Assembly (NCBI RefSeq): GCF_019059575.1
Contig: NW_024882709.1
Span: forward strand, 1-64,000
Source of the DNA: Amphibalanus amphitrite
Lineage: Eukaryota; Arthropoda; Thecostraca; Balanomorpha; Balanidae
DNA length: 64,000 nt
Direction of reading: 5' to 3'
The position numbers and the translations under genes were made by a program. The notes beneath the pieces are model-generated. The model did not search any database. It was not told the DNA's origin and saw only the letters and a list, made by a program, of their open reading frames with translations. This document shows, one piece after another, positions 1-63,918 of this stretch (its first letter is position 1; every line of letters starts with the position of its first letter).

Positions 1-1373
1 TCACCTCGCTTACGGATCAGCGTCTACCATTCACAAATAGCCCAGCTAACAATTTGCCGTTGTTACAACGTCGTTTAAACGTTGTCAAATGGTTACCACA
101 ACGTCCCGATTTATCGTTGTGACAACGTAATTTGTGTAGACTCCAGACAACGGCGTGACAACGTCATCCGACCATGCATTTGAATGTCATCACAACGTTC
201 TGTAACGTGGCCGTGACGTCCCAAAACTGTTCTTACAACGTCCCGCCAACGTTATGAAATGTTTTCTGTAACGTACCAACAGTGTTTCTGGAACGTTTCA
301 CCACGTTTCCGCAACGTGACTACAAGGAATATAGAACGCTTTGGCAACGTCTCTGCGGCGTTTTTATCACGTGCGCACCACGTTGTCGCTACTTCGTATT
401 GCCGTCCCTGCGACCCTGAGTAAACGTCCATACCTAACATTTTCGCAACGCCCTCTCAACGTGTTCGCAAATCGCAACATACTCAGAATGTGTTTCCGAC
501 GCTCTCTTCCCGTTCTCTAGACTTGTAAAAAAGGCATGTAAGAAGTGTATATTTCAAAACATCATACAGATCAATTTACAAAAAAAAACGACGGCGGCGG
601 CATCGGTGATGGGGCATGGGGCCCAGGGGCGCTCCCATGGGGGCTTGGGACGGAATTGGGTTCTACCGGCTCTGGCGCTAGCCGTTAGCACGCCAGAACT
701 GGTGGAAGTTCACTTCCTCACTAACCCTCGCTGGGAGGATCACTCGGCGGACCGTTAGGCACCGGCTCATTTGCGGCCTCGATGTCCCTAGGCAGCTGGC
801 AGTGCCTGACTAGACGGTCTGCGCACCCCCCGTTCCGGGCGCAGCTTCCGGACAGCCACTTCGCTACCGCATTGCCGACAGTAGGCCTGCCACAAAGCGC
901 TGACGAGTTGCAGGACGTCTGCGGGAAGACATGAGGGAAAATCAGACATTCAATTCATGAAAAAATCACAAAAATACCTGCACCACTTTCCGTAACAGTG
1001 CGACAGGCTAGGTCAAACATGCCAACACCTTAGAGGCTAGAGCTACAATGAACTATAGCCTAGACCGCACGATATTACAAGGCACAATCTTGCAAATGCT
1101 ACTCGTAAATGGTACTTTGACTTACCAGTCAAAGCAACAATCGCATCAAACGCAGACAACTGGCGCTATCTTTCATCTTCCAGCTATCTCAGCCGCGCCC
1201 GCCGCCGGCCCTCACTGCTCGCTCGCGCCGCGTAGACTGCGGCTCGGCCGGCTGGCTCTGAACGCCGGCCGGTGACACTGACGTCACGGCCCCTCAGGCG
1301 AGGTCAGGGCGCGAGCCACCGTTCGCCGAGTGGCGGCCCGCGTGGCTTGCTGGCAGCCGCGGATAACAGCCGC

Positions 1374-5757: not shown

Positions 5758-5782
5758 TACATGTTCTTGAACAGGCATGAAC

Positions 5783-6013
5783 TCAGCTCGCGCCCGTTAG
5801 TTTGCGGATCTTGTCAGAGTCCACACCGCGCCCACTGGTGCGCGTCGGCGGCCCCTTTCGTTTCTTGCTATGCACTTGGCTGTTCACATCCTTCACGTGG
5901 TTAGACACGAACACGTTAAACAGCGCTCCGGCCATGGTGGCGAGGATATTGCTGGTAAACTTGTGCCCCCTTCCACAAGCCACTTCCTTCAGTTCTTCGT
6001 CATCGCCGAGCAT
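5783..6013 (-). pseudogene. C-terminal segment of the P transposase, cut off by the LINE
   Basis: The frame from 6013 to the stop at 5783 (MLGDDEELKEVACGRGHKF...) is on the transposase strand and lies directly on the far side of the LINE from the frame ending at VFRSVVQN near 7239. It looks like the original C terminus of the transposase. It ends in a basic, lysine-rich tail (SKKRKGPP). The link is inferred from position and strand; I have not aligned it to a known P protein. Confidence 0.55.
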
Positions 6014-7238
6014 GCTTTTGACAAAATTACAGCAGCATGGTGTCGACGCTGGATGGTTTCGCTCTTACCTTACCGACCATACTCAAAGTGTTTCTATCCC
6101 AGATCCCTTTTCCGGCCGTAATCGCCTCTCACAGCCACTGCCGAACGCCATGGGCGTTTTCCAGGGGTCGGCCCTTGGGCCCTTACTTTACACTGTTTTT
6201 GCCAATGATCTGAGTTTTTACGCACCGGATGCTCATGTCGTACAGTATGCTGATGACACGCAAGTTTTAGTGTCAGGAAGTAGGGATGATTTGACTGAGT
6301 TAGTGTCGCGGATGGAGAGCTGCCTTGCGTCGCTCGACTTATGGTTCAGGGGTAACTCCCTGAAGGTGAATGCTTCCAAGACGCAGCTGTTGGTGTTCGG
6401 CAGCCGGCGGAACCTCCGCAGCGTTCCCACGCTCGAGGTGCGGTTCCGCGGCGAGAGTCTCCGTCCGGAGCCTACAGCACGCAACTTGGGTGTCGTTTTC
6501 GACCCGATATTGTCTTGGGACGCTCATGTCGCACATGTCGTGAACAAGTGTTTTGGAATGTTGATCGGTCTTAGCCATATTCGACATCACTTGCCTCAAA
6601 ATGTAGTTCCTACTATCGTACACGGTCTCGTCCTGTCACATGTCAGATACTGTTTAACTGTTTATGGCAACGGCTCAGACAAAAACCACAAACAGCTCCA
6701 AAAAGTCATTAACTTCTGTGCCAGGGTTATAGCTGGCAGGCGCAAGTTTGACCACATCTCTGACATCTTAAATGGTCCGGACTGGCTTACCGCTAAGCAA
6801 CTGTCGGAGTTTCATACCTTAACCCTCGCTCATCGCATCTTACGATCGGGAGAGCCGTCTACACTTGTTTCACTTTTTAGAAGAGTGTCTAGTTTACGTG
6901 ACCGACCCACGCGACAAGATAGCCATTTTTATCTACCTCGTGTCAGGTCAGAGGCAGGACGGCGTCAGTTTGCGTACCGAGCCCCACAGCTATACAACAG
7001 TGTGCCGGAACGGCTGACTACGCTCAGCACGGACGTTTTCAAGCGGAGCTTGAGGCGTACTCTGAAGTGAGAAGCGACTACCGTGTGGTGTGTGATGCCA
7101 TTGTATGAGCAGGTGTGTTTCCAATTTTGTAAACTTGTACGTATCTCTTACTGCCCTGTATGACACTGGACCAAGAATAGCCACAGCTGCAGTGGATGGT
7201 TCAAAGATATGCAATAAATAAATAAATAAATAAATAAA
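6013..7238 (+). mobile_element. 5'-truncated LINE (Jockey/CR1-like) with (AAAT)n tail
   Basis: The plus-strand frame from about 6013 to 7070 codes the back half of a non-LTR reverse transcriptase: LLTKLQQHGV..WFRSYL, then QGSALGPLLYTVFAND, the catalytic YADDTQ box, RNLGVVFD, and a C terminus of the LYNSVPERL..FKRSLRR type. That layout is typical of the Jockey/CR1/L2 group. The endonuclease and front half of the RT are absent, so it was truncated at its 5' end on insertion. The 3' end carries five AATA/AAAT units at about 7212-7238, a usual tail in this group. It lies antisense to the P-element transposase and interrupts it. I see no clear target-site duplication. The upstream part of the same open frame (5802-6012) is P-element sequence, not LINE. 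Confidence 0.88.
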
Positions 7239-10200
7239 GTTCTGAACCACAGATCTGAACACATTCTTGGGACTTGAACTGCCAAAGAGGATGGTGCGAG
7301 TCTCTGACTGTGAATTCACCAGAAGTCTGTAGAGCTGGCAGACCTCCATGACGACTCGCAGGCACAGTTCACTCGGTTGCAGGAGCTTTCCACGGTTGAG
7401 GAGGTCGGTGAAGCTAGCAGCCACCAGCTTTTCTTCAGCATTCTCTGCCACCACGGTTACCAGTTGCGCCCTTAGCCCGTCAGAGAGTAGCGCGCGACAC
7501 TCATCACATCTGTGAATCTTCTTGACTGAGTGGGCTAAATAGCCTGCTATGTGGTGCAGAGCCTGCTGTGTCCCTTCTGGGACGTCTTGGGCTGGGTCAT
7601 CAGAAGAGGCAGCAGCGGCATACTCGGTGATCTCAGTGACGGCTCGCTGGTCGTTTTCCAGGCGCTGCTGAGAGACAGGGTGCATGCCAGCCGTCACTGT
7701 GCTCAGACCATAGCCTGAGAGCCAAATTAGGCTTTTTACGCGGACGATAGCCTCTCCTTCAAAAAATTGACGAGAGCTCGCCCAGAAGTTGCCTCCGGCC
7801 AGTTTCCGGAGATGGCCGAAGTGACCTTCTGGCCGGTCGGATTGAATCTTGCCAAGCAGGACATGCTCGAGATCACACTGTCTGAGCAGATACTTGGCCA
7901 GCCCGACCAGCCCTCGACAGGTTGCTGCCACTCCACGTATCGTGTCGAGCGACATTTGCGTCTTCTTGTTTCCCTGGGCTTCCCAGCGCAGCATCATCTT
8001 TCCGAACTTCTCGATGTATGCCAGCCCTTCTTCATCTCCAGTGGAAATAGGCTGCAGAGTCGAGTCGTTGCGACGAACATGCTTCCCAGGGGACTTCACG
8101 TTGACGATGTCGAACCACCTCCGAACTTGGTGCAGGAACTCTGCTGTACCGTTTAAGGAGCCGTACTCTGCATGTTGCCCATAGTAGCGGAGCGCAGCGA
8201 TGGTTGTCTCGTGAGTGGCTGCTACGGCGAGCTGCACGTTCACGCGCTCTATGCTTGTTGGATGGAGCACCTTATCCGTGAGTCGGTATGCCATCTTGGC
8301 ATCAGAGCTGTACTCGATGGAGTGTACCTTTTCCAGGTGGCTGAGGTGAACATCCAGAGGAGGCCCACCTGCATCGAGTGGCGGACAGTGCAGTTGTTTT
8401 TTGTTCAGGAGGTTGAAGTACATGTTTTTGAACAAGTGGACTGAGTCGTACATGGTGTATATCCTGTCATCACTGTGTGGACTCCAGGGATTCAGGATAT
8501 ACTCCTGATGCCTCCCATCTTCTCCAAGCGCTCGATGGAAGGCTTGGTTTGTTCTGTGTCCGTCAGTTGTAACGGACACTACACGGTACCCAAGATGGGT
8601 GAGACATCGCAGGACTTGGAAGAAGATTCTCTTCATTTCTTGGGTTGTGACGTGGGTGACTGGCGACATGGTTACCAAATCCTCGTAGTTCCCGGCAACC
8701 GACGAAATGTGGGCGCAGAACAAGGTACTGGCGACAGCTGTTGCTTCTCCGCTGCTCTCCCCATGCAGTCTTCCTCCCGCCAGATCGAGTGCTGTGGCAC
8801 AGTAAACCTCGTCCATGGCCAGATTTACCAGCCGTTCTCTTGGAGACAACTTGGCGACCCGCATCTCCAAATACTTGATGGTCCCGATCTCCAGTCCCTC
8901 TTGCACGCTTAGTGCTGACGTAAGTCTCCGGAGAGTGACTCTGTGTGGCAGGACCAGAAGACCCGAGCTGCGCATGTCTTCATACAGTCGGGGACTCGTT
9001 CGGCTCCACACCACTGCAGTGGACATGAGTGTCGTGCTGTACCTCCTCCTTTTTGCTGGACTGAGTCGGAGTTGCAGCTGTTCAGCGGCGAACTCCCCAA
9101 AAGTACCGCATGATCCAGCTGCATCGTCCGTGCTGATTTTCTGCAGAAAATGCAGTGCAGTCATCACGTTGCCATCTTTCAAAGACTGTGCCTTGAGGAA
9201 CGCCAGCACGTTCAGGACCTCAGTCGTCGTTTCGAAGCTCCCGGGAACGCTTGTCAGATCAGCTGCCCTAAGAGTAGGCAACTCGCTCCCGGCTGCGTAC
9301 AAACGGAAACGAAGATCACTGTAGATCGTCAGGTTTCGTACGATGACTGGAATACCTTGATCTGTGTCAAATGCCTCCATTCTGATCGTCACAATGTCCT
9401 CCTGAAGTTCAGGAACATGCATCTGTACGAGCCGGTACCCAGTCGGCAGGTCCACCGTAGAGAGCTTTCTCACCATGTCGGTAAGAGATGCCACGTTCTC
9501 GGAACGAAACATGGATGCGGCTTGTTCCTCCCACAGTTCTCTTTGCAGCAGCCTTCGTGCTGTTGGAGTCGCGCGTATAGTGGGTCGTGGAGTCTCCTGT
9601 CCGCTCTCATTCCTGCAAAAGGAGAGAAATATTTCACTTCACAACTGCATTTAGCAACGGTTGCAAAATATATGGGAAACAAATTAGCATACATGGGTAA
9701 TTTGGACATTGCCGGATAAATGCTATAAATTGATAAATGTAGCTCGGAACTTATATACACAAAAAGAAGTTATATACAGTTATATACACAAAAAGAACAA
9801 TTCAGCAGCATGTGCGACCCTTTTTAACCGCTATGTATGCATGCAGGTTAACAGTTCGGCCTACGGAGGTCATGTAAGGTCAGCTTGTAAGGTCGGGTCG
9901 GGTCAGAAAAGGAAAAGATTAAAATGTGCTGAAACCGACTCCAACTCCGGGCCGTCAGAGTTGTCTGGATCAAAAGTTATTCAAGAAAACCATCAGAAGT
10001 AAAAACGAACATTTTTCTTCGGTTACCTCTGGTTGGTGACCCAGTTTTTGACCTGACCGAAAAATGACCGAAGTACTTTCTTACTGTTTTTTTTTTACCG
10101 TTCTTTCGAACGCCGCCTACCGCTTGTCTCTACGACGCCCCCCCCCCCCCCGGCCCGCTGATGGGGCACCGGCCCGGCGCGGGTTAACGTCTGACATGAT

Positions 10201-12042: not shown

Positions 12043-15000
12043 ATGCGCGCGCTAGTGGCCTGCCTGGCGGTGGCGGCGGTGCTGACGGCGCCGGCCGCCG
12101 CTGACAGGTTCCGCACGGTGCTGGTCGGCGGGCAGCCTGACTGGGCCGCGGCCGGCGGTGACCAGGGCTGTGACATCTGTGGCGGCGGCGGGGGTCACTC
12201 GGGTGGCGGCTACCGCACCTCCTCCTCCCACAGCAGTCGCTACACGAGCTCCGGCCAGCTGGCGCCGCGCTACCGGCCCGGCCTGCTCGGCCGCAGCGGC
12301 GGCGGACAGCGGCGCACCTACCACTTCTCCAGCGAGGAGTCCGAGTACACCTTCAGCAACGGCACGCACAGCACCACCATCACCAGCAAGCGCTCCAGCG
12401 AGGGCGTGCCCCAGTTCCACCTGCGCATGACGCGGCTGGCCGACGGCGCCGTCATCGAGAGCACCGTGCTCTCGGAGGCCGAGTACCGCCAGCGGCGCGC
12501 CAGCCTCGGCCTCACCGGCTCCGACGGCAGCTTCGGGTTCGAGTCGCTGGGCGGCGGCGAGCTGCACGGCCTGAGCTCGCGCCGGCTCTCCGGCGAGGAG
12601 CTACTGACCGAGATGGAGCGGCGGCTGGCGCACCGGCGCGGCGGCCACGGCCGGCACTCCACCACCAGCTTCTCCAGCGAGGAGTCGCACTACTCGTTCA
12701 GCAACGGCACGCACACCACCAGCATCACGGGCCGCCGGAACAGCGAGGGCGTGCGCGAGTACGGCCTGGAGCTGATCCGGGACGCGGACGGCGCCGTGCT
12801 CGACCGCGCCACCATCTCTGAGGCCGAGTACAACCGGCGGCGACAGAACATGGTCGGCGGACGCGGCTTCGACGACGTGTTCGACATCCACGGCGTGCGC
12901 GGCTCCGGAGCCAGATTCGACTCGCGCTTCGACTCGCGGTCCGACTCGCGGTCACGGTCCCACTCTGAGTTCGGCTCGGACTCTGCCGAGTCGGAGTACG
13001 GCTCACGGTCGGGCGGCCGGCGGCCGACGCACAGCGGGTCCTCCGGGTCCCGCTCCACATCCTATTTCCGCGAGGAGCGCACCGAGACGCGCCGCGAGGA
13101 GGGCGCCGAGAGCTGCGCCTGCGTGTCCCGCTCGCGGTGTCTGTACTCGGACCGGGTGGTCTCGGCGGCCGCGCTGAGCCGCTGCCGGACCGACGAGGTG
13201 TGCTGCCGCGAGCAGCGGCCGTTGCTGCCGCGGGTGCCCACCGACTACCCGCGGCCGGCGCCCACCGAGCGGCCCGTGCGCCGGCCGCAGGCCGAGCCCC
13301 AGGTGCGCGAGGAGCCCGCCTGCAACTGCGTGCCGCGCGACACCTGCTCCTACCGCGAGCGCGACTTTTCGCTGGCCGGCCTGCAGAAGTGCCGCCGCCC
13401 GATGGTCTGCTGTAAGCGTCAGCTGGTGTCCCAGCCGGCCGAGGAGCCGGCTCCGCTGTTGCCAACCCCGGCCCCCGTCCCCCGACACACCACCCCCGAC
13501 CCGGCCTTCGTGCAGCGCGAGCGCGACCTGTTCAGGGACATTGTGCAGCACGTGGACACGGACGAGCGGGCGCCCGTGCAGCGGCCGGTCGACCTCCGCG
13601 GCCTGCAGAGCTCGCTCTCGCGGTACGATGACGCCAGGGACGTGTCCGGCGGCCACCGGCGCACCGAAGTGAGTCGCACCGAGCACTCGCGCACCGAGAC
13701 CTCGGGCGCCGCGCCTCTGCCGGCCGTCACCGGCGGCCAGACGAGCAGCACGCGCCAATACAGCTACCGCAGCCGCAGCTCCTCCGGCGAGCAGCTGCCC
13801 GAGCCGGCGGACCCGCGCCGGCCGCTCTACCCTGCCGACAGCAGCGCCGGCCACAGCCGCCGCACCCACTCGTACGAGAGGACCAGCTCGGGGTACCGCG
13901 GCGCCGGCGCCGACCTGCTGTCCGGCGCCCACGGCTCCGGCTACACCGACAAGGAGGACTCTGCCGAGCAGAGCGGCTCGCGGGTCATCTCCAGCCGCCG
14001 GCACTACTCGGAGCGGCGCGTCGTCTCCGGAGAGGACAGCGGCGAGCAGGCCACCACGGGCGGCTACCCGCGCTACCCGGACCGGCCGGTCGACCTGCCG
14101 GGCCCGCAGCTGGGCTCCTCCAGCAGCTCGCGCCACTACTCCTACCGCAGCTCCTCCAGCTCGACCTCGTCCGGCGAGCAGGGCGACGCCGCGCTGCTGG
14201 CCGGTGGCGCCGGTTTGCGCGGCCAGCACAGCGCTCAGCGGCCGGAGGTGACCAGCTCCTCGCGGCGCTACTCGGCCCAGCACTCCACCTCGAGCGGCGG
14301 CGGCGGCGGCGCGGGCCTGCTGGCCGGCGGAGACGCGGGCCTCTCCGGCGGCGAGTCGGTGACCTCGTCCCGCCACTACTCCGAGCGGCGCGTGGTGTCC
14401 GGGGACGCCGGCGGCGACCTGGGTCTGTCCGGGGGCGACCTGGGCCTGGCGGGCGGCTCGTCGGGCGGCTACTCGAGCGGCTCGAGCTACCGGTCCTCGT
14501 CCTCCTGGTCCTCCCGCTCTGAGAGCGGCTCCTCGGGAGGACTGGTGCCGTCCGGCGGCGGCTCCCACCAGTACCCTGCCGGCTCCGCGGGCGGCAGCGG
14601 CTCCAGCTACCGCTACTCGTCCAGCTCTCACTCCTCGCAGGCGGTGAGTGTAGCGCCGACGACCAACTCAGAACTCTAAGAAGCATCGATTTTATCAGCT
14701 GTTTCATCAAACTGTCCATGCTTAACGTTCATACGAACAACAAACTTATACTTAAAGCTCAAAGCACATGTCTAACATAACTCACATTATATCAGACCGT
14801 CTTGTCTGTTGTTCCTCCGAAACTTCATACCAAGTGGTGCCTTGCATAGAGCACTATTCGCCTTCTGAAGCGTCTTACAGCTCGGCCTTCCCGGCCCTCA
14901 CTGAGTCTCTGTCCCGTCAGGCGCCGCTGGAGTCGGGCTCCAGCTATTGGAGCAGCTACTCGCAGCAGTCGCAGCGTCACCGTCGCGGCTGGACCGACCT

Positions 15001-18000
15001 GTTCACCGGCCGAGACGAGACGCCGCGCGCCGCCGCCGAGGCCGGCGACAGCTGCGTCTGCGTGCGCTTCGACCGCTGCTCGGACGGCAACCTGCTGCAC
15101 CACGGCGCCGACCTGCTCGACTTCAGGTGGGTTAAACCTGACCTGTCAGACTTCAGGTGGGTCCAACCAGACCTCGACTTCAGGTGGGTTAAACCCGACC
15201 TTCAACACTTCACTGGGTCCAACCCGACCTCAGCCCGAACAGCATTTACTCATTCAGGCATTTTAGACCTGCGAGTAGTGGTAGCGATAAGTGTTCCTCT
15301 GCCGTCATTGTTCAGAGTCGAAGTATATTTCGTGTCGTATCCGTGCATATGTATGTGTCTCCACTGATTCCTCCCCTCCCGTGTCCGTCCTGCAGTATCG
15401 GCTCCCGGAAACAGTGCTCCGGGTTCCGGGTCCGTACTGACTCTGTGTTCCGGGTCTGTACTGACTGTGTTCCGGGTCTGTACTGACGCTGTGTCCGTCC
15501 CACAGTATTGGCTCCCGGAAGCAGTGCTCCGGGTTCCGGGTGTGCTGTGACACGCCGCCGGAGGTGCTCCGTCAGCTGGAGTCCACTCCGGGCCTCCGGC
15601 CGGGCGTGGTCACCTCTGTGCCGACTGCCGAGCTGGAGCTGGCCGGCCGCTCCTCGCCGCTGGCGCCGCACGTCTCCAGCTCCCAGCCCTGCGTGTGCGT
15701 CTCCTCGTACCTGTGTCAGGGCGGCCAGATCGGCGCCTCGCAGCAGCTGCTCGTCGACATGCGCCAGGTCTCGCAGACGGGACGCTGCAGCTACGACGGA
15801 CAGGTGAGCTCACAGGTGACGGCTGAGCTCACAGGTGATCGGTGAGCTCACAGGTGATAGCGGTGACAGGGTGACAGGAGATTGGTGATCTGACCAATTC
15901 ATTCGTCATGATGTTTGCTGGACAGGCGAGGATTGGAGAACGAACGTTAACTGGAAATCGGCATTATCCAGTAGCGTTTTGCGTTCTTGGCAAAGGCAGT
16001 TGAGTTTCAACATCACCGTGCACATATCGCGTATCGTTGTTCAGATATGCATTGCCATCACACTGTGTAATGCTATTATCAGGTGTGCCGTTCTATCACT
16101 CTGTGCTGTGCTGTGCTGTTTTCAGGTGTGCTGCGCGGTGCCGTGGGCCCAGGTGCAGCCGACTACCCCGCCGGCGCCGTGCAGCTGCGTGCCTGGAAAT
16201 CAGTGCCGCCAGCAGGATATCCTCACCCGCTACACCAACGTCAACGCGCCCACCTGTCCGGGCACTCAGGTAAGTATGGACAGGGCCAGATTTTGGGCAC
16301 ATGCCAATAGCCATTCACGGAGTCAGATAGGTCCGGTCAGGGTTCAGTGAAAGGTTCTGGGTCCATAAAGGGGTGTGGGTCAATAAAGAGTGAGGGATTG
16401 GTCCATGAAAGGCAGAAGGTCAGTAAATGGGGATGGGTCATTAAATGGGTCAATAAAAGGGGGCAGAGTCAGTGAACGGTGACAGGCCAATAAAGGGGTG
16501 GGCAGGTCAGTAAAAGGGGGACGGGTCAATAAAAGGGAGACGAGTCAAGCGGGACAGTCTTTAAAGACGTTTCCGATCCTCGGAACACCGACTTAGCCCG
16601 TTTCGTTCGGGCCGCCACTCTGACCCCCCCCCCCCCCCTCTGCAGGTGTGCTGCTCCCGTCCGCAGTCGGGCGGCCCGGCGGTCCGTCCGCCCGCCAGCA
16701 GCCTGGACCGTATCGAGTACGACATGTACCGGTTCTGCAAGTCGTACCCGCTGAGCGTCGCCTGCTCCAGCACTCACCAGGTGAGAAACGGGGAGACTAC
16801 CGGGGAGAGAAACTCACACTAACTCACTGAGTCAGGAACCCGCTGGTACGCAAATGGGGGGACGCTGGCTCTCGAGAAAAATCAATTTTGTTGGTATATT
16901 TCATAGGAACTAGTAATGCATTCCTACTTGCGATAATGGTTTCCATTTGACTGCTGATAACGTAACATTTTCCCCAATCCTTTTCAGTTCAACGTTCTGC
17001 CGACTCTCCGACCTACGCCGTACTTCGACGCTGAGCGGGACGCCAGAGCGCTGAAGTGAGTATTATCGTTTGTTTTTGTTCATCTGAGAATAGTCGTTAC
17101 ATAATCCGGAAAAATCCTAACGAGCAAGTATCATTTTCAATGTTCGGTCCGATTTATACGTAGGCTCCGTGTGACCTAGTCAGGGGCCGCTGAATAAGCT
17201 TGTATGAAGTGGATGTTAGACGGCAGTGGAGGTTTGTACGTGTGCCGGTCCTGTCGGTACCAGGCGCTGCTCGGCCGCCGCTGCCGCCGCAGACGTCTGT
17301 CTCTCGTCACAGCCACCGTAAACACTGGTCGACGGAAAACTAGGAATGTTAGGACTGTTCTGATACGGGCACGATCGGCCCCCGCTGGGAGTTGACCGAG
17401 GTGATATCACCGCCGACAGTCAGCTGAGCAGGGTCGGGTCACCACTGACAGTCAGCTGACTGCGATTTGACAGTGAGACAGCTGACTAATATAGTGATAT
17501 TGCTGACAGTTGACCCGGATAGTGTCGCAGTCAGCTAACCTGTCACGTGTCGCTGCCATCTCGCCCCACCTCTGTACCCAGCCGCTCAGTATTGTTGATC
17601 CCCCGTCTGACACTGAATACAATCTCCCACAGCGACGCGTTCGGCCTGTTCGGAGTCGACGACGACGTCCTGATCGGTATCCTCACCAAGAGGACCTTCA
17701 AGGAGCGCGCCCTCATCAAGCAGGCCTTCGCGCGGCTCACAGGCTCGGTGAGAAGGATATGGGTGATATTGTGAGAACGCCCGTGCTGCTGTCATCACTG
17801 ACAGCAGTACTGGAGTTTCTCACTCTCAACTCTCAGTAACTATCCATTTCGGAGACGTCGAGGGACGCGGTTTTAGGTCACCACTGTCAAACACTGGGCT
17901 GGTAAAAAGATAATGAGGTTACCCGGTCCTGCTTCATTCGCTACTGGCGGCTTCGTGACCTAGTTCTGGTCATCAGCTTCTGGAAGAGACTGATAGTTCG

Positions 18001-21000
18001 GCTCTGCTAAACTTCTGGTTCGTGGTATACACCCGGCTGCTCCAGGCTGCAGCTGCCGACGGATGGTAGAGCCCTGGTTCTGTTAAACTCGGTGCCTGGC
18101 CCGGGTGTCCGACATTTGTCCGGCCCTGAGCTGCTTCACTAAGGCCCCGATGTCGTCCAGCGTTGGCCTTGTCCCGTGGCCGTGTTTTCGTCCAGCGCCG
18201 CCGGTGGCCCGCTGTCCCAGATCCGCTGGCCCCGGTCCGCCGGCGGCCCCTGGCTGCCGCCGGCCGAGGTCGGCCGTGTGTTTACAGTGGGGAGACGGGA
18301 CCCAGACGCCTGTGTCGGGCCGCGCGGTCACAGAGCCACCAGTGGCCCGGCTAGGGACGGAGCAGGGTAGACCGTCTCAGCTACAGCACATAGCTCAGTC
18401 CGCCCACATACAGAGACTGTCCATGTCAACGGGGTAATGGGACAGAATATGCTGTAGGATATGAGGGTTGATAATCCGTCCGGGTCGGAAAAGTTGCAGG
18501 ATTTGTATAAAAATACGTGGATTAAAGCTGTTTAATGACATACGAAAAACAGCCAATTGTGGCTGACTCCCTGACTCCGAACACCTGCTAAGCCTCAGCG
18601 GTAGTGACAGATCCAGCAGTATAGTACCGCTGTGAGTTCGTCTCGCAATGTCATCAGCCTGCGACCAACTCTCTGAGACTAATATGAAGTCATCCGATGG
18701 ATACCTCACACCTCTGACGTGCTGTGCCGCAGAACCTGGCGGACAAGATCGAGAGGTACTCGACGGGCAACTACGAGGACCTGATGGTCGAGCTGCTGGA
18801 CGGCGCCTCCATGGAGGAGTACCTGGCCAAGCGGCTGCACGAGGGCATGGACCGTCTGGGCACGGACGAGGACGTGGTGCTCGAGACACTGATCAGCAGC
18901 ACTAACCAGGAGATCGCCGCCATCAAACCCTACTTCTACGCAGGTCGGTGGACCAGAGATGAAACCCAAATTCTACGCTTGTACTCGATAATGAATGTTT
19001 CGAGGTGACTAGCCAAAGGACTAGTCACCGGATCTCGGACATTAGATCTGTATAGTGTGCTTCCGTGCATTAGCAGGCTCGTGCGAATATTCTTGGGCTA
19101 TAACATATGTCTGTCTTTTGTCTTTTCTCACTATTAAAGCATCGTCATTTTTGTGCGAATGTGTCCTTTCTTCTTCTAACGAAAAGTAAAAACATCGACC
19201 TTGGACTCTTTCCGACCATGTAGGTTCATTGTACTTCAGCCGTCAATGTCCTTCAACTATGTTTAGTCTCCCGGTGTCTAACCCCGTCCGCCTCCCGCAG
19301 AGTCCGGCCACACGCTGGAGGACGACATTGCCGACGACTTCTCCGGCGACCTGGAGGACATTCTGGTGGCTCTGGCTAACGGCACGCGCGACAACAGCTT
19401 CACCGTGGACCGACGGCGGGCGCGCGAGCAGGCGGCCGCCCTGCGCAGCGCAGGTACGGAGCCGCGGGTCTGAACAGGGCCGGGTGATTGCTACCGAGTT
19501 TGATCGAGGTGTTACCATGTTAGTGTTAGTTTGATAGTTTTACCGTGTTGGGGCTGGTGTTACGTTTGGTAAAATTCATTAAACGTGATGTACAGCTATC
19601 CTTGATGAAGGTTTACAACTTTTCGGAAGCCTAAATTGAAGCATAAGAATGACAATATGTACGGAAATCGATAGCTAACACTAAGATATATCGGTGTTTT
19701 GCAACGGTACTTTGCTATAAAGTTAAGCTCAGCGTGACAGCATTGACAACCTTCAATCCCGTCTTAGGTTGGACACCACTGACCGTTCTCTGCCGCTGTT
19801 TGGCCAGGTGAAGGGCTGGGCACCAGTGAGGAGACGTTCAAGTACTATCTGACGCACGAGAACTACGCGCAGCTGGCGCTCATCTTCTCCGAGTACGAGC
19901 AGCTCGCCGGCGAGACGTTCGAGGATGCGCTGGAGGATGAGTTCAGCCGGCACACAGAGGACGCCGTACTGGCCATCGGTGAGGACGGGAGGGGAGGACT
20001 GGGGCTGACGACAATAGTGATACTGGGGATGACAGTTCTAAACGTTATAAATCGGGTAAATGCTTCATTGATAAATGTCTAAGAGCTCACCATCTCGCGT
20101 TTCACTTCAGTCGTTCTCTAGGCGATGGTTAAATTACACACGTCGGGTTACTCTAGCTCGTCCCATCGGAGACTCGATTGCTGACTTGCCCCTACCCCAC
20201 CTCTGACCCCTCTGCCCCTCCCCACCTGTGACCCCTCTGCCCCTCCCCACCTCTGACCGCTCTGTCCCGCTCCCCCCCCCCCCCCCACCTCTGACCGCTC
20301 TCCCCCTCCTCCCCACCTCTGACCCCTCTGCCCCTCCCCACCTCTGACCGCTCTGTCCCGCTCCCCCCCCCCCCCCCCCACCTCTGACCGCTCTCCCCCT
20401 CCTCCCCACCTCTGACCCCTCTGTCCCCTCCCCACCTCTGACCGCTCTGCCCCGCTCCCTCGGCAGTGGAGGTGACCAGGAACCTGCCGGCCTATTTCGC
20501 CGGCCGGCTGTACGACGCACTGTGGGGCCGCGGGGTGATCTCCAAGGACGACTCGTCTCTGCGGCGGATCATCATCTCCAGGGCCGAGCGGGACCTGGGC
20601 TCCATCGCGCAGGAGTACCAGCGCCGCTACGGCAACTCGCTCAAAGACGATATCGAGGTACGGGACACGGTATCACCGGTCACAGACAGCACACGGTACA
20701 CACTGCACACACACACACACAGCACACAGCACACCACACACAGCACAGCACACAGCACACGTACCAAAACCGCGCACAGTGCCAGCGCCGCTGCGGGAAC
20801 TCGCTCAAAGACGATATCGACGTACGGAGGAGACACGGGGGTAGCGAGGGACACTCAGATACACGCAGCGCACTCGGCAGCATACACCATACGCCGCTTA
20901 ACGTACGGCCCACCGCTAAAGTAATGTGCTGTTTTACCAATCTCAACGGATGGCTTTGACTGGCGATTTTTTTAATGCGGAGTAATCGAAAGGAAGACGT

Positions 21001-21682
21001 CAAAAGATAAAGTTGCAGCTGCAAATGTGACGATACATGTAAGCTACATTCAAAGTTTCATTGTAGTGTGGCTAATCGTTCCAAAGCTTCAGAAGCAGAA
21101 CATACTCTTGACTGAAACCGCACATTACTTCTGCTGTGGACTGTACGAACTTCAACACAATGCACATTGCGCAGCCTAGTAAAGTCGAATTCAAGTTGTG
21201 TCGTTTATCCACGTTGATGTTTTGTGTACTTGTTTATAAATGCAACAATTTTTATTTAATCATTAATGAAAAATATGACTATGTTTTTCGACAATAAGGA
21301 CGTAAATATATTTTCGTAAAATTGACGACGTAAAATGCTGAAATCTATATAAACGTTCGATGACCTTGCCATGTGCTCAGTTTTCCGTATTTACCGGTGC
21401 TATATTCGTTCCGATAGTCTCGCCCCAACTTCCCCGTACTTACGCCAGAGCTGTATCCGCCCCTACATTCTGGCCCGTATCACTGATGTATCCGCCCCTA
21501 CATTCTGGCCCGTATCACTTATGTATCCGCCCCTACATTCTGGCCCGTATCACTGATGTATCCGCTCCTCCAATCTGCCCCGTATGACCACTCCGCGGTG
21601 TTGACGCCAGTGTTTTATCCCGTTCCAGACCAAGTCCACGTCCGACTATGAGGACGCGCTGGTGTCGCTGATTGGCGGCTAG
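12043..21682 (+). CDS. Secreted clip-motif/annexin fusion protein, 1448 aa, 12 exons
   Basis: Exons: 12043-14643, 14921-15126, 15506-15803, 16126-16269, 16646-16780, 16988-17055, 17633-17747, 18733-18943, 19301-19453, 19808-19978, 20467-20657, 21629-21682. All introns are GT-AG with matching phases; the sum is 4347 nt. The protein starts with a signal peptide (MRALVACLAVAAVLTAPAAA). A Ser/Gly/Arg-rich region follows, with two ~65-aa repeats holding FSNGTH (near 92 and 206) and several YSERRVVSG-like units. Five clip-like motifs of the CxCV...C...C...VCC form lie at about 358-388, 427-457, 912-950, 998-1038 and 1054-1086, like PPAF-2-type clips of serine protease homologs, but no protease follows. 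Residues ~1145-1448 form four annexin repeats. Calcium loops look kept in repeats 2 (RLGTDE) and 3 (GLGTSE) and degenerate in 1 and 4. Annexins normally lack a signal peptide. Inferred role: extracellular calcium/lipid-binding or matrix protein. Confidence 0.85.
15121..15226 (+). repeat. Tandem copies of the exon 2 splice donor
   Basis: The exon-intron junction CTTCAGGTGGGT (real donor after 15126) recurs at 15151 and 15178, with a degenerate fourth copy near 15207. The period is about 27-30 bp, each followed by TTAAACC or CCAACC. The first copy gives the phase that fits exon 3. Confidence 0.85.
15382..15545 (+). repeat. Duplicated acceptor and start of exon 3, with spacer repeats
   Basis: GTCCGTCCTGCAG plus the first ~35 bp of exon 3 (TATCGGCTCCCGGAA...) at 15382-15431 is repeated at 15494-15543, where it joins the real exon. 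Between them a TCCGGGTCTGTACTGAC unit is repeated. Only the right copy continues into the VCC codons. Confidence 0.85.
15797..15880 (+). repeat. Repeated donor-like units after exon 3
   Basis: The donor CAGGTGAGCTCA (exon ends 15803) is followed by near-copies of GAGCTCACAGGTGA at about 20-bp spacing up to 15880. Confidence 0.7.
16330..16555 (+). repeat. Degenerate minisatellite in intron 4
   Basis: About eight imperfect units of GGTCAATAAAAGGGG type, roughly 25-30 bp each. No reading frame of note. Confidence 0.7.
17056..17632 (+). other. Intron 6 of clip-annexin gene
   Basis: 577 bp without a further exon that I can fit. Repeated CAGCTGA words with GACAGT lie at 17410-17500. The long intron 7 (17748-18732) likewise shows no gene, only a CpG-rich stretch at 18110-18370. 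Confidence 0.5.
20170..20460 (+). repeat. C-rich minisatellite before exon 11 acceptor
   Basis: Imperfect ~20-25-bp units of CCCCACCTCTGACCGCTCTG, with two long C runs, end directly at the exon 11 acceptor (CGGCAG, 20461-20466) and form its pyrimidine tract. Open frames here are repeat artefacts. Confidence 0.85.
20695..20765 (+). repeat. CA-rich microsatellite and partial exon 11 echo
   Basis: ACACACAC/AGCACACAGCACAC tract just after exon 11. It is followed at about 20780-20825 by an echo of the exon's end (CAGCGCCGCTGCGGGAACTC... GACGATATCGACGTACGG), again including a donor-like site. Confidence 0.75.
21455..21590 (+). repeat. 36-38-bp tandem repeat before exon 12
   Basis: Four units of TATCCGCCCCTACATTCTGG plus CCCGTATCACTGATG, about 40 bp upstream of the last exon of the clip-annexin gene. 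Confidence 0.9.
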
Positions 21683-26713: not shown

Positions 26714-43534
<16,821 letters not shown>

Positions 43535-62362: not shown

Positions 62363-63918
62363 CTACTCGACGTCTTCCTCGGCCAGCGAGCCGGCCGGAC
62401 TGTGCCGCGGACCGGAGGCCGCCGACGCCGCCGAGCTCTGGCTGCCGCCGCCGCGGCCCTCCGTCAGCTCCGGCCCACCCTCCTCCTCGAGGGCGGGCCC
62501 GCGCGCCGTCAGCGCCACCCAGTCCCGCAGCCGCTGCCGCTTGGCGTCGTGATCGACGACCGTCTCCAGTCCGAGGGCGCGCAGCGGCGCCAGCACGGCG
62601 TTCTTCTGCTGCTGACACGAGTGCACCGACCACGTCGAGTAGCAGACCGAGGTGGCGTCGCCGGCGTCCACGCCGTCGCCGGCGGCGGCCGAGGCCGAAC
62701 GGGCCGTCCAGCGGTGGCCCAGGTGCCGGCCGATCTCGGTGACGGCGCAGCGGCGGCGCGCGCGCGGCTCGAACAGCCGCCGCAGCAGGCTCTGCAGCCG
62801 CAGCGAGAACTCGCCGAACCGGTGCGGAGCGCGCAGCGCCCGGTAGCCGCGCCACTGGCAGAAGGCCGCGTACCGGGCGTCGGTCTTGTCGGCGCGCTGC
62901 CAGGGCAGGGCGCCGGTCAGACACACCACTAGCACCACGGCCAGCTGCCAGGTGTCGTGCGCGGCCGCCACCGTGTACAGCTCGCCGCGCGGCTGGCTCA
63001 CGACCTCGGGCGGCGCGTACGGCGCCCACTCGTCGCCGCGCCGGGCGCGCCAGCCCACCGGCCGCGTCTGGTCAAAGTCGGCCAGCTTGACGCGCGACAG
63101 GTCGCTCTTGAAGACCAGGATGTTGTCGAGCCGCACGTTGCGGTGTACCAGGCCCTTGCTGTGCATGAAGTCGAGAGCGGCGACCAGCTGCGGCGCCAGC
63201 AGCTTGGTGTTGCGCTCGCCGATGCCGCCGTTGGAGACGTAGCAGGCCAGGTCGCCGAACTGAGCGTACTCCTCGGCGAACACGAACATGTCGGACGTGC
63301 TGAACGCCACGTCGTACGTGGTCACGATGCTCCGGTGGGGACTCAGAAAGTAACTGCCGGCCGGGTGGGAGGTACGGGTCAGCACACCCGTCACACACGA
63401 AACGAGCATCCATTCGATCATCCTTTATAAGACAGAGTGGACAGTGGCTTCCGTCTTTAGCGTAGTTCAGTACCGGGGATACCCTGGAAGCGGCCGAGCT
63501 CACCTGTAGTGGAACTCGCGCAGAAAGTCGGCCCGGCTGGTGGCCACCTTGTGAAGCGCCTTGAGGATGACCTCGTGTCGGCTGTCGCGGTGCTCAGCCA
63601 GCAGAATACGGCCGGACCACACCTCGCAGAGCGTCTGCAGCACCTCATACTGCTCCTCCAGCTTCACCTGACATGGAGGGAGCTGGGGTTTGAACGCATC
63701 TGGCTATTTCACCAGCCACAGTCACACAGTCATTCAGCGTCTGTAGGATATCAAACTTCTCATTTAGCAACCTGTCAGCGTTTGCAGTCGTTTATCGTGC
63801 AATGGAATATCCGGTATTGCGGCTGACTTACCTCCTCCAGCTTCAGGTTCCTGATCTGATGAATGCTTCCCTTCCTTTCACTGGAGCTGTGACCGGATTT
63901 TCTGGGCCGGTCGCTCAT
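62363..63918 (-). CDS. SBK-like protein kinase family member, probable pseudokinase, 413 aa
   Basis: Exons on the minus strand: 63918-63832, 63667-63504, 63353-62363; phases match and the total is 1242 nt. The kinase domain spans about 36-290. Features seen: no clear glycine loop (TLCEVWSGRILL); the ATP-site Lys is present in VILKAL (about residue 65); FLREFHYSYFLSPH and FVFAEEYAQFGDL resemble SBK-type kinases (SH3-binding kinase family). The catalytic HRD is HRN (154-156) and the following Lys is Arg (HRNVRLDN), while the metal-binding Asn stays. DFG is DFD (176-178). PYAPPEV, DTWQLAVVLVVCLTGALPWQ and the C-lobe look normal. From these changes I infer weak or no phosphotransfer, perhaps a scaffold role. 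The C-terminal ~120 residues are low-complexity (Ala/Glu/Gly/Ser). The next gene, drk, is an SH3 adaptor, but nothing shows that they interact. Confidence 0.82.

Follow-up and report, generated by a model that had tools for sequence, protein, structure and literature searches.

Annexins share a membrane-binding fold and are normally intracellular, and Drosophila masquerade carries five PPAF-2-type clip motifs. Clip proteins act in melanisation, and PPAF-II interacts with phenoloxidase through its clip domain (PMC4372372, excerpt). An annexin-like nematode effector, 4F01, has been analysed among stylet-secreted effectors (PMC5802810, excerpt), and the curing of barnacle glue has been likened to clotting (PMC3040736, excerpt). 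In barnacle adhesive, annexins with signal peptides and four annexin domains are described for both the goose barnacle Pollicipes and the acorn barnacle Amphibalanus amphitrite, and a single sentence (section 3.7) states that, in the Pollicipes adhesive proteome, these annexins have a CLIP_1 domain as well; CLIP_1 is named only for Pollicipes (PMC8371367). The main text of a shell-plate proteome (PMC11293433) mentions neither annexin nor the gene described below, LOC122371205, and excerpts of a crab haemolymph study list an annexin A11 and a clip serine protease as two distinct proteins (PMC8047416).

Here we analyse a 64,000-nucleotide stretch of A. amphitrite DNA (the window) that holds a gene joining CLIP modules to a four-repeat annexin. 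Sequence comparison indicates that this join is real and old, and that a goose barnacle shares it. The initial annotation knew of no such fusion, which is no longer exact given the sentence on Pollicipes, so the fusion is not wholly unreported. Its statement that annexins lack signal peptides holds as the usual rule, with exceptions such as 4F01.

Gene structure and domain composition

The 12-exon model translates into 1448 residues and a stop codon, has GT-AG borders at all 11 introns and equals NCBI LOC122371205, a model built on a genome of the same species, letter for letter (Table 1). Translation reproduced the annotated 12 exons, 1449 codons and junctions 16780/16988 and 17055/17633, together with all five C-x-C-V ... 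V-C-C motifs.

Table 1 Features of the long CLIP–annexin gene and its protein
Feature	Residues	Coordinates	Strand	Basis
Whole 12-exon gene		12043..21682	+	Translation, match to NCBI LOC122371205
TATA-like box upstream of start codon		11919..11926	+	Read by eye
Exons 1–6		12043-14643, 14921-15126, 15506-15803, 16126-16269, 16646-16780, 16988-17055	+	
Exons 7–12		17633-17747, 18733-18943, 19301-19453, 19808-19978, 20467-20657, 21629-21682	+	
Hydrophobic N-terminus, likely signal peptide	1-20	12043..12102	+	Hydrophobicity, translation; cut site by eye
SSEES...SEAEY repeat domain, copy 1	~92-152	12316..12498	+	Translation, alignment
SSEES...SEAEY repeat domain, copy 2	~206-267	12658..12843	+	Translation, alignment
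Short clip-like motif 1	358-388	13114..13206	+	Cysteine pattern only
Short clip-like motif 2	427-457	13321..13413	+	Cysteine pattern only
Ser/Gly-rich stalk	~470-867	13450..14643	+	Composition
Furin-like site RHRR	886-889	14975..14986	+	Motif search, alignments
CLIP 3, split by intron 2	912-950	15053..15548	+	Best Pfam CLIP_1 stretch, cysteine pattern
CLIP 4, split by intron 3	998-1038	15690..16134	+	Cysteine pattern; taken as second CLIP_1 stretch
Clip-like 5, split by intron 4	1054-1086	16180..16654	+	Cysteine pattern only
Two-cysteine linker CKSYPLSVAC, exon 5	1114-1123	16736..16765	+	Alignments
Intron 5, join of CLIP exons with annexin exons		16781..16987	+	Matching phase-0 intron in short gene
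Four-repeat annexin core, exons 6–12		16988..21682	+	Pfam PF00191

A Pfam scan of residues 1-460 returned no family above its cut-off. The SSEES...SEAEY repeat domain is kept in the Pollicipes alignment. Residues 471-880 are 22% Ser and 15% Gly. The RHRR site that follows aligns with RRRR in Pollicipes and marks the border of the part common to the shorter paralogs described below. RxRR also matches at residue 149.

Domain search with CLIP_1 and annexin profiles found both families in one protein. Pfam CLIP_1 (PF18322, PPAF-2 type) scored 34.6 bits against a gathering score of 26, with two stretches, the better at residues 905-951 (motif 3) and the other taken to be motif 4. The clip label of the initial annotation thus stands by profile for two of the five motifs, and for the other three by cysteine pattern only. 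A CLIP_1 scan of the genome (22 matches) listed the short paralog and not the long gene, whose clips 3–5 are interrupted by introns, and the CLIP part, searched by sequence against solved structures, gave no match at E 1 or better. At E 0.01, Pfam found only CLIP_1 and Annexin, and no trypsin-like domain, in the long A. amphitrite protein and its Pollicipes ortholog. In each of the two species, long and short forms alike retain the CKSYPLSVAC linker with minor changes.

The C-terminal part comprises four annexin repeats (PF00191, combined E 3.2e-56). When a type II calcium site is defined as KGxGT plus an acidic residue about 40 residues on, that acid is kept in repeats II and III and lost in I and IV in 6/6 family members. 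The window's plain annexin has itself lost one such acid, that of repeat II.

Two features bear on the location of the protein. Its N-terminus has a Kyte–Doolittle mean of 2.99 (ten residues), compared with at most 0.53 in seven plain annexins. The annexin core holds 0-1 cysteines in the six CLIP-annexins, counted over the core only, compared with a mean of 4.2 in 78 plain annexins, counted over the whole length of hits of 280-360 residues; such near-absence is expected of a location outside the cell. On these sequence-based grounds, the predicted secretion of the CLIP-annexin, as initially annotated, is highly likely.

A barnacle gene family

In Pollicipes, an ortholog shows the same arrangement, at 63% over the C-terminal part, and both species also carry a shorter paralog that lacks the Ser/Gly arm. 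The A. amphitrite short gene has 10 exons over 8653 bp, and the introns after its exons 2-9 match long-gene introns 4-11 in phase, the comparison of gene structures being made within A. amphitrite. P0008, a 513-residue frame from a contig no longer than 1841 bases, corresponds exon by exon to exons spread over the 8.65-kb short gene, indicating that a spliced mRNA across the CLIP/annexin join existed; a genome search found no intronless near-identical copy. P0008 lacks one CLIP module (CLIP 2). Splicing of CLIP 2 as an internal intron was rejected, as the exon holds no GT-AG intron that explains the loss.

As defined here, the barnacle CLIP-annexin family has a predicted signal peptide, CLIP modules, an FCKSYP linker, a near-cysteine-free annexin and shared intron phases, and the long protein has them all. 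In a tree of 33 rows (6 CLIP-annexins, 7 A. amphitrite plain annexins and 20 sequences hand-chosen from 91 hits outside the CLIP-annexin group), the annexin parts of the CLIP-annexins formed one clade at 100/100 and the long forms grouped at 95/98. Exon hits were assembled for five of the plain annexins, the window gene's own exons were joined for another, and C72 came in one piece; P0008, P0010 and the plain annexin gene at C2100 were left out. A tandem origin from the neighbouring plain annexin was not supported: the grouping is weak (54/81), although exon lengths are similar. At the window's plain annexin there is a retroelement, and the other haplotype suggests the intron position.

Among scored candidates, CLIP plus annexin occurred only in barnacles or in unnamed contigs. 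Each word-based protein search was set to a length range and scored the 7997 or 8000 candidates with the most words in common, so that absence outside barnacles is weak evidence. The family may have begun with an ancestral gene, bearing a signal peptide and CLIP exons, that became linked through an intron, today's intron 5, to exon 2 of an annexin gene; a later duplication would then have yielded the long and short forms.

One gene across the join

That gene prediction falsely merged two adjacent genes, one for a CLIP protein and one for an annexin, is very improbable. A plain annexin gene does lie farther downstream in the same orientation (39577-43534), and the transcript-type evidence stems from the paralog and not from the long gene. 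However, that evidence crosses the join, the identical domain order recurs in Pollicipes and in the short paralogs, and the intron phases at the join equal those of the short gene. Exons 6-7 offer no start codon for a separate annexin, nor does its loss of cysteines fit one; residues 1110-1207 hold no methionine, and with the donor patterns applied, intron 5 gave no candidate first exon. Intron 6 gave two weak ATG-to-donor candidates, which were taken as chance. Between haplotypes, dN/dS is 0.06 over exons 2-12, the span of the test, with exon 1 (2601 of 4347 coding bases) outside it; the CLIP exons 2-5 give 0.12 and the annexin exons 6-12 give 0.03. Exons 2-12 are under purifying selection. 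Together, the ortholog, the paralogs, the spliced-mRNA evidence from one of them, this selection and the loss of cysteines bear out the annotated fusion, and we regard a single gene joining CLIP modules to annexin as nearly certain.

Possible function

The adhesive annexins of PMC8371367 very probably belong to the same family, and it is likely that CLIP-annexin family members are present in adhesive. N-glycosylation sequons were rejected as a means of telling which form the published A. amphitrite adhesive annexin is, since long and short forms have three each (two each in Pollicipes).

We tentatively propose, by analogy, a docking scaffold. Outside the cell, the CLIP modules would work as they do in PPAF-II-type serine protease homologs and dock a clip protease, phenoloxidase or a similar partner, while the annexin, with acidic ligands in repeats II and III and not in I and IV, would anchor the complex to membranes, vesicles or matrix of negative charge. 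A Ser/Gly-rich arm, perhaps cut off at RHRR, would be the addition of the long form, and the likeliest site of action would be the system of cement, cuticle and wound clot. We put the chances of the whole explanation (a secreted CLIP-annexin of fusion origin that acts as such a scaffold) at about even. The initial guess, a calcium-dependent protein that binds lipid or matrix and serves clotting, immunity, cuticle or adhesion, agrees with the adhesive location, but with the type II sites of repeats I and IV lost, simple calcium-dependent binding may be less strong than that guess supposes.

A purely structural cement or cuticle protein is somewhat unlikely. Here the CLIP modules would serve only as disulphide-crosslinked spacers and the annexin as a calcium-mineral or matrix glue, with the Ser/Gly arm as a filler resembling silk; a protease cascade would not be involved. 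The signal-peptide annexins in the adhesive of both species (PMC8371367), the arm itself, the several cysteine-rich motifs and the partial loss of calcium sites agree with such a role; yet a PPAF-2 profile match above cut-off and the low dN/dS of the CLIP part seem more than spacers need, and the short forms lack the arm. It is quite unlikely that the protein instead works in haemolymph, as an immune or clotting factor coating microbial membranes or those that expose phosphatidylserine, and reaches the adhesive by leakage only, although haemocytin, vitellogenin and apolipophorin stand in the same adhesive list (PMC8371367) and the melanisation role of clip proteins would suit it. An annexin, which one unstated, peaks in juveniles in a barnacle settlement study (PMC3923807, excerpt), which is not decisive.

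With the docking scaffold in mind, barnacles may have taken an annexin from the cytosol and made it an extracellular anchor for cofactors of clip proteases, much as Gla domains in vertebrate clotting fix a cascade scaffold to membranes or surfaces, and may have used it to cure cement before the lineages of acorn and goose barnacles split; by analogy this is conceivable, but we consider it unlikely. The family is a conserved case of an annexin apparently moved outside the cell by gene fusion, with a testable trail in its sequence: signal peptide, cysteine loss and edited calcium sites. Should family members prove to act in barnacle cement, named proteins would connect the curing of the glue with the clip-protease chemistry of clotting and melanisation in arthropods.

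Comparison with known systems

Like PPAF-II and masquerade-like clip serine protease homologs, the barnacle proteins are predicted to be secreted and have CLIP_1 (PPAF-2 type) modules; unlike them, they carry an annexin in place of the trypsin-like domain. With the arthropod annexins B9, B10 and B11 they share four PF00191 repeats, and Aethina annexin B11 was the best match outside the CLIP-annexin group among scored candidates (41%), but the barnacle proteins differ in their signal peptide, CLIP modules, near-absent cysteines and loss of the repeat I and IV calcium sites. Nematode 4F01 resembles them as a secreted annexin-like protein (PMC5802810, excerpt). It is not known to carry CLIP modules. 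The adhesive annexins of PMC8371367 share the signal peptide, the four annexin domains and, in the Pollicipes ones, CLIP_1; to that description, whose excerpted text does not contain them, the present analysis adds gene structure, paralogy, selection and a candidate mechanism.

One gene joins CLIP and annexin

The 12 exons initially annotated as one gene join in frame, as claimed, into 4347 bases (1448 residues plus a stop), and all 11 introns have GT...AG ends. Among 5.8 billion proteins searched, the uncharacterized A. amphitrite protein LOC122371205 matched at 100% over the searched part; direct comparison found the two letter-for-letter the same at whole length. The window is bases 1–64000 of contig C1212 in an assembly totalling 807.5 Mb. 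In a Pfam scan of the whole protein, CLIP_1 (PPAF-2 type; 34.6 bits, cut-off 26) covered two stretches and Annexin four (E 3.2e-56), with no other domain at E 0.01. The four-repeat annexin core also aligned along its full length with solved annexins, annexin VI among them. All five CxCV...VCC motifs are present, but the clip profile supports only two of them as clips; a sequence comparison of the CLIP part with solved structures gave no match at E 1, and a CLIP_1 genome scan (22 matches) listed the short paralog and not the long gene. The SSEES...NGTH...SEAEY repeat domain gave no Pfam match above cut-off.

Two adjacent genes, with a separate annexin starting at exon 6 or 7, would be the alternative to a single gene. 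The long protein is free of methionine from residue 1110 to residue 1207, which leaves exons 6 and 7 unable to begin a separate annexin; with the donor patterns applied, intron 5 yielded no first exon for one either. In A. amphitrite the short gene is divided into ten exons across 8653 bases, and the last eight exons share the phases of long exons 5–12 at nearly equal lengths (long/short: exon 5, 135/147; 6, 68/68; 7, 115/115; 8, 211/211; 9, 153/156; 10, 171/174; 11, 191/191; 12, 54/57). P0008, a protein-search match with ~99% identity to the short-gene product, has an open frame of 513 residues and a contig no longer than 1841 bases, yet the exons matching it are dispersed over the whole 8653 bases. 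It is most simply read as a spliced transcript; a processed DNA copy, of which the genome search found none, would likewise prove that an mRNA spliced across the CLIP–annexin border once existed. P0008 lacks the second clip, and no canonical splice sites were found to explain this. Together, short-gene phases, P0008 and the lack of a separate annexin start bear out the single gene: the CLIP–annexin join is real.

Features located in the window
Feature	Position	Strand	Details
Reverse transcriptase fragment	5781–7067	+	
882-residue frame	6993–9638	-	TNP-like transposase domains, one above cut-off, one just below
SSEES...NGTH...SEAEY repeat domain	12316–12843		two copies; well conserved in Pollicipes
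Broken copy of exon 3 start (intron 2)	about 15395–15505		by eye
Broken copy of exon 11 end (intron 11)	about 20785–20830		by eye
Gypsy-type LTR retroelement	33682–39543		two identical 255-base LTRs, TTAT target duplication
Plain annexin gene	39577–43534	+	seven exons seen
Protein kinase domain	62366–63424	-	E 1.6e-24

Some 33 bases separate the Gypsy-type element from the annexin exon that follows it. Its insertion looks recent and not fixed, since the site is unoccupied in the other haplotype (L015:3565–3849).

A barnacle family and its origin

The ortholog of the goose barnacle Pollicipes pollicipes has 1538 residues, the layout of the long gene and six clip motifs. Both species also carry a shorter paralog (Annexin A3 or A3-like by name) in which the annexin comes after a signal peptide and three clip motifs. 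In three protein searches, 7997, 8000 and 8000 candidates were scored and 4, 5 and 97 matches kept. Among the four matches to the long form, P0004 has annexin repeats without CLIP_1. In the annexin search, whose length range excludes the long forms, CLIP_1 was found in 4 of 97 matches: the two short paralogs (P0005, P0006) and the further members P0007 and P0008. Two more members (P0009, P0010) have only the annexin part visible. This group of six scored at least 407 bits, and the next match was beetle annexin B11 (305 bits, 41% identity). The CLIP-annexins form a family, which to date has turned up in barnacles.

In a 33-row tree the six CLIP-annexins included fall into a single clade (100/100), within which the long forms cluster (95/98) and the short forms have no resolved order among themselves. 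The grouping of the long forms suggests that the long/short split predates that between A. amphitrite and Pollicipes. According to an excerpt of PMC11331182, four barnacle species, A. amphitrite and Pollicipes included, diverged about 247 million years ago, and a whole-genome duplication came earlier. In Pollicipes the long and short genes sit on sequences that differ in length (36.9 and 26.3 Mb), a placement that fits an origin of both forms in that duplication and is no proof of it.

The join lies in intron 5, because exon 6 has an annexin-typical start (PT...FDA..DA..L) and exon 7 equals the matching exon of the downstream plain annexin in length and phase (115 bases, phase 2, taking 39577, read by eye, as the start of the latter). 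This position is as expected if a CLIP gene was fused to an annexin gene at the second exon of the latter. The grouping that would make the plain annexin of the window the source had 54/81 in the 33-row tree, where that gene pairs with one on C1373 (100/100). Its exons as read encode five cysteines, unlike CLIP-annexins; its first coding exon was not found. The genome search gave about ten annexin genes in A. amphitrite, most present twice, probably because both haplotypes were kept in the assembly. Two of them (C72/C1592 and C2100/C93) are single open frames, intronless in appearance.

On the second haplotype, exons 2–12 are full-length with intact splice sites, and 9 of 582 translated positions differ. 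Over exons 2–12, with 46 changes synonymous and 9 not, dS was 0.1145 and dN 0.0069 (ratio 0.06), with ratios of 0.12 for CLIP exons 2–5 and 0.03 for annexin exons 6–12. Exon 1 differs between haplotypes by insertions and deletions. In that haplotype exon 10 is followed by three broken copies of its own end (L013:9783 to L014:75). Exons 1–7 appear twice on C1610 in opposite orientations (L018, C1610:1–9999, and L013, C1610:28500–38499) with almost equal match figures. This is an inverted duplication or an assembly fault, and may explain the NCBI partial model LOC122374165.

Secretion, calcium sites and adhesive annexins

A signal peptide is likely: the first residues of all seven family proteins tested are strongly hydrophobic (Kyte–Doolittle means over ten residues, 2.04–3.21), unlike those of seven plain annexins (0.53 or less). 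Of six members, four lack cysteine altogether in the annexin core and two have a single one there; 78 plain annexins of 280–360 residues average 4.2, with at most one in only seven, six of them from legumes. A furin-like site (RHRR in A. amphitrite, RRRR in Pollicipes) marks the border between the extra N-terminal arm of the long form and the part common to both forms. CLIP-annexins thus look secreted.

Calcium sites were aligned across the six members, seven plain annexins and the plain annexin of the window. In all six, repeat I has lost its first glycine and acid, repeats II and III retain the acid, and repeat IV has lysine instead, in a loop longer by three or more residues; the first glycine of repeat II is arginine in five. 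Acid loss is not special to CLIP-annexins, because the plain annexin of the window has lost that of repeat II. Given these changes, binding is expected to be altered and not to be simply like that of annexin A5.

An annexin of unstated type has its maximum in juveniles, according to a portion of PMC3923807. Published reports would allow a model in which secreted CLIP modules dock clip-protease or phenoloxidase partners and the annexin holds the complex on membrane or matrix. The initial statement that no such fusion was known is no longer accurate: in section 3.7 of PMC8371367, one sentence already reports CLIP_1 with annexin for the Pollicipes adhesive proteome, where both annexins also have predicted signal peptides (2/2). 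The single annexin of the A. amphitrite adhesive proteome, possibly from the long or the short gene, likewise has one (1/1).
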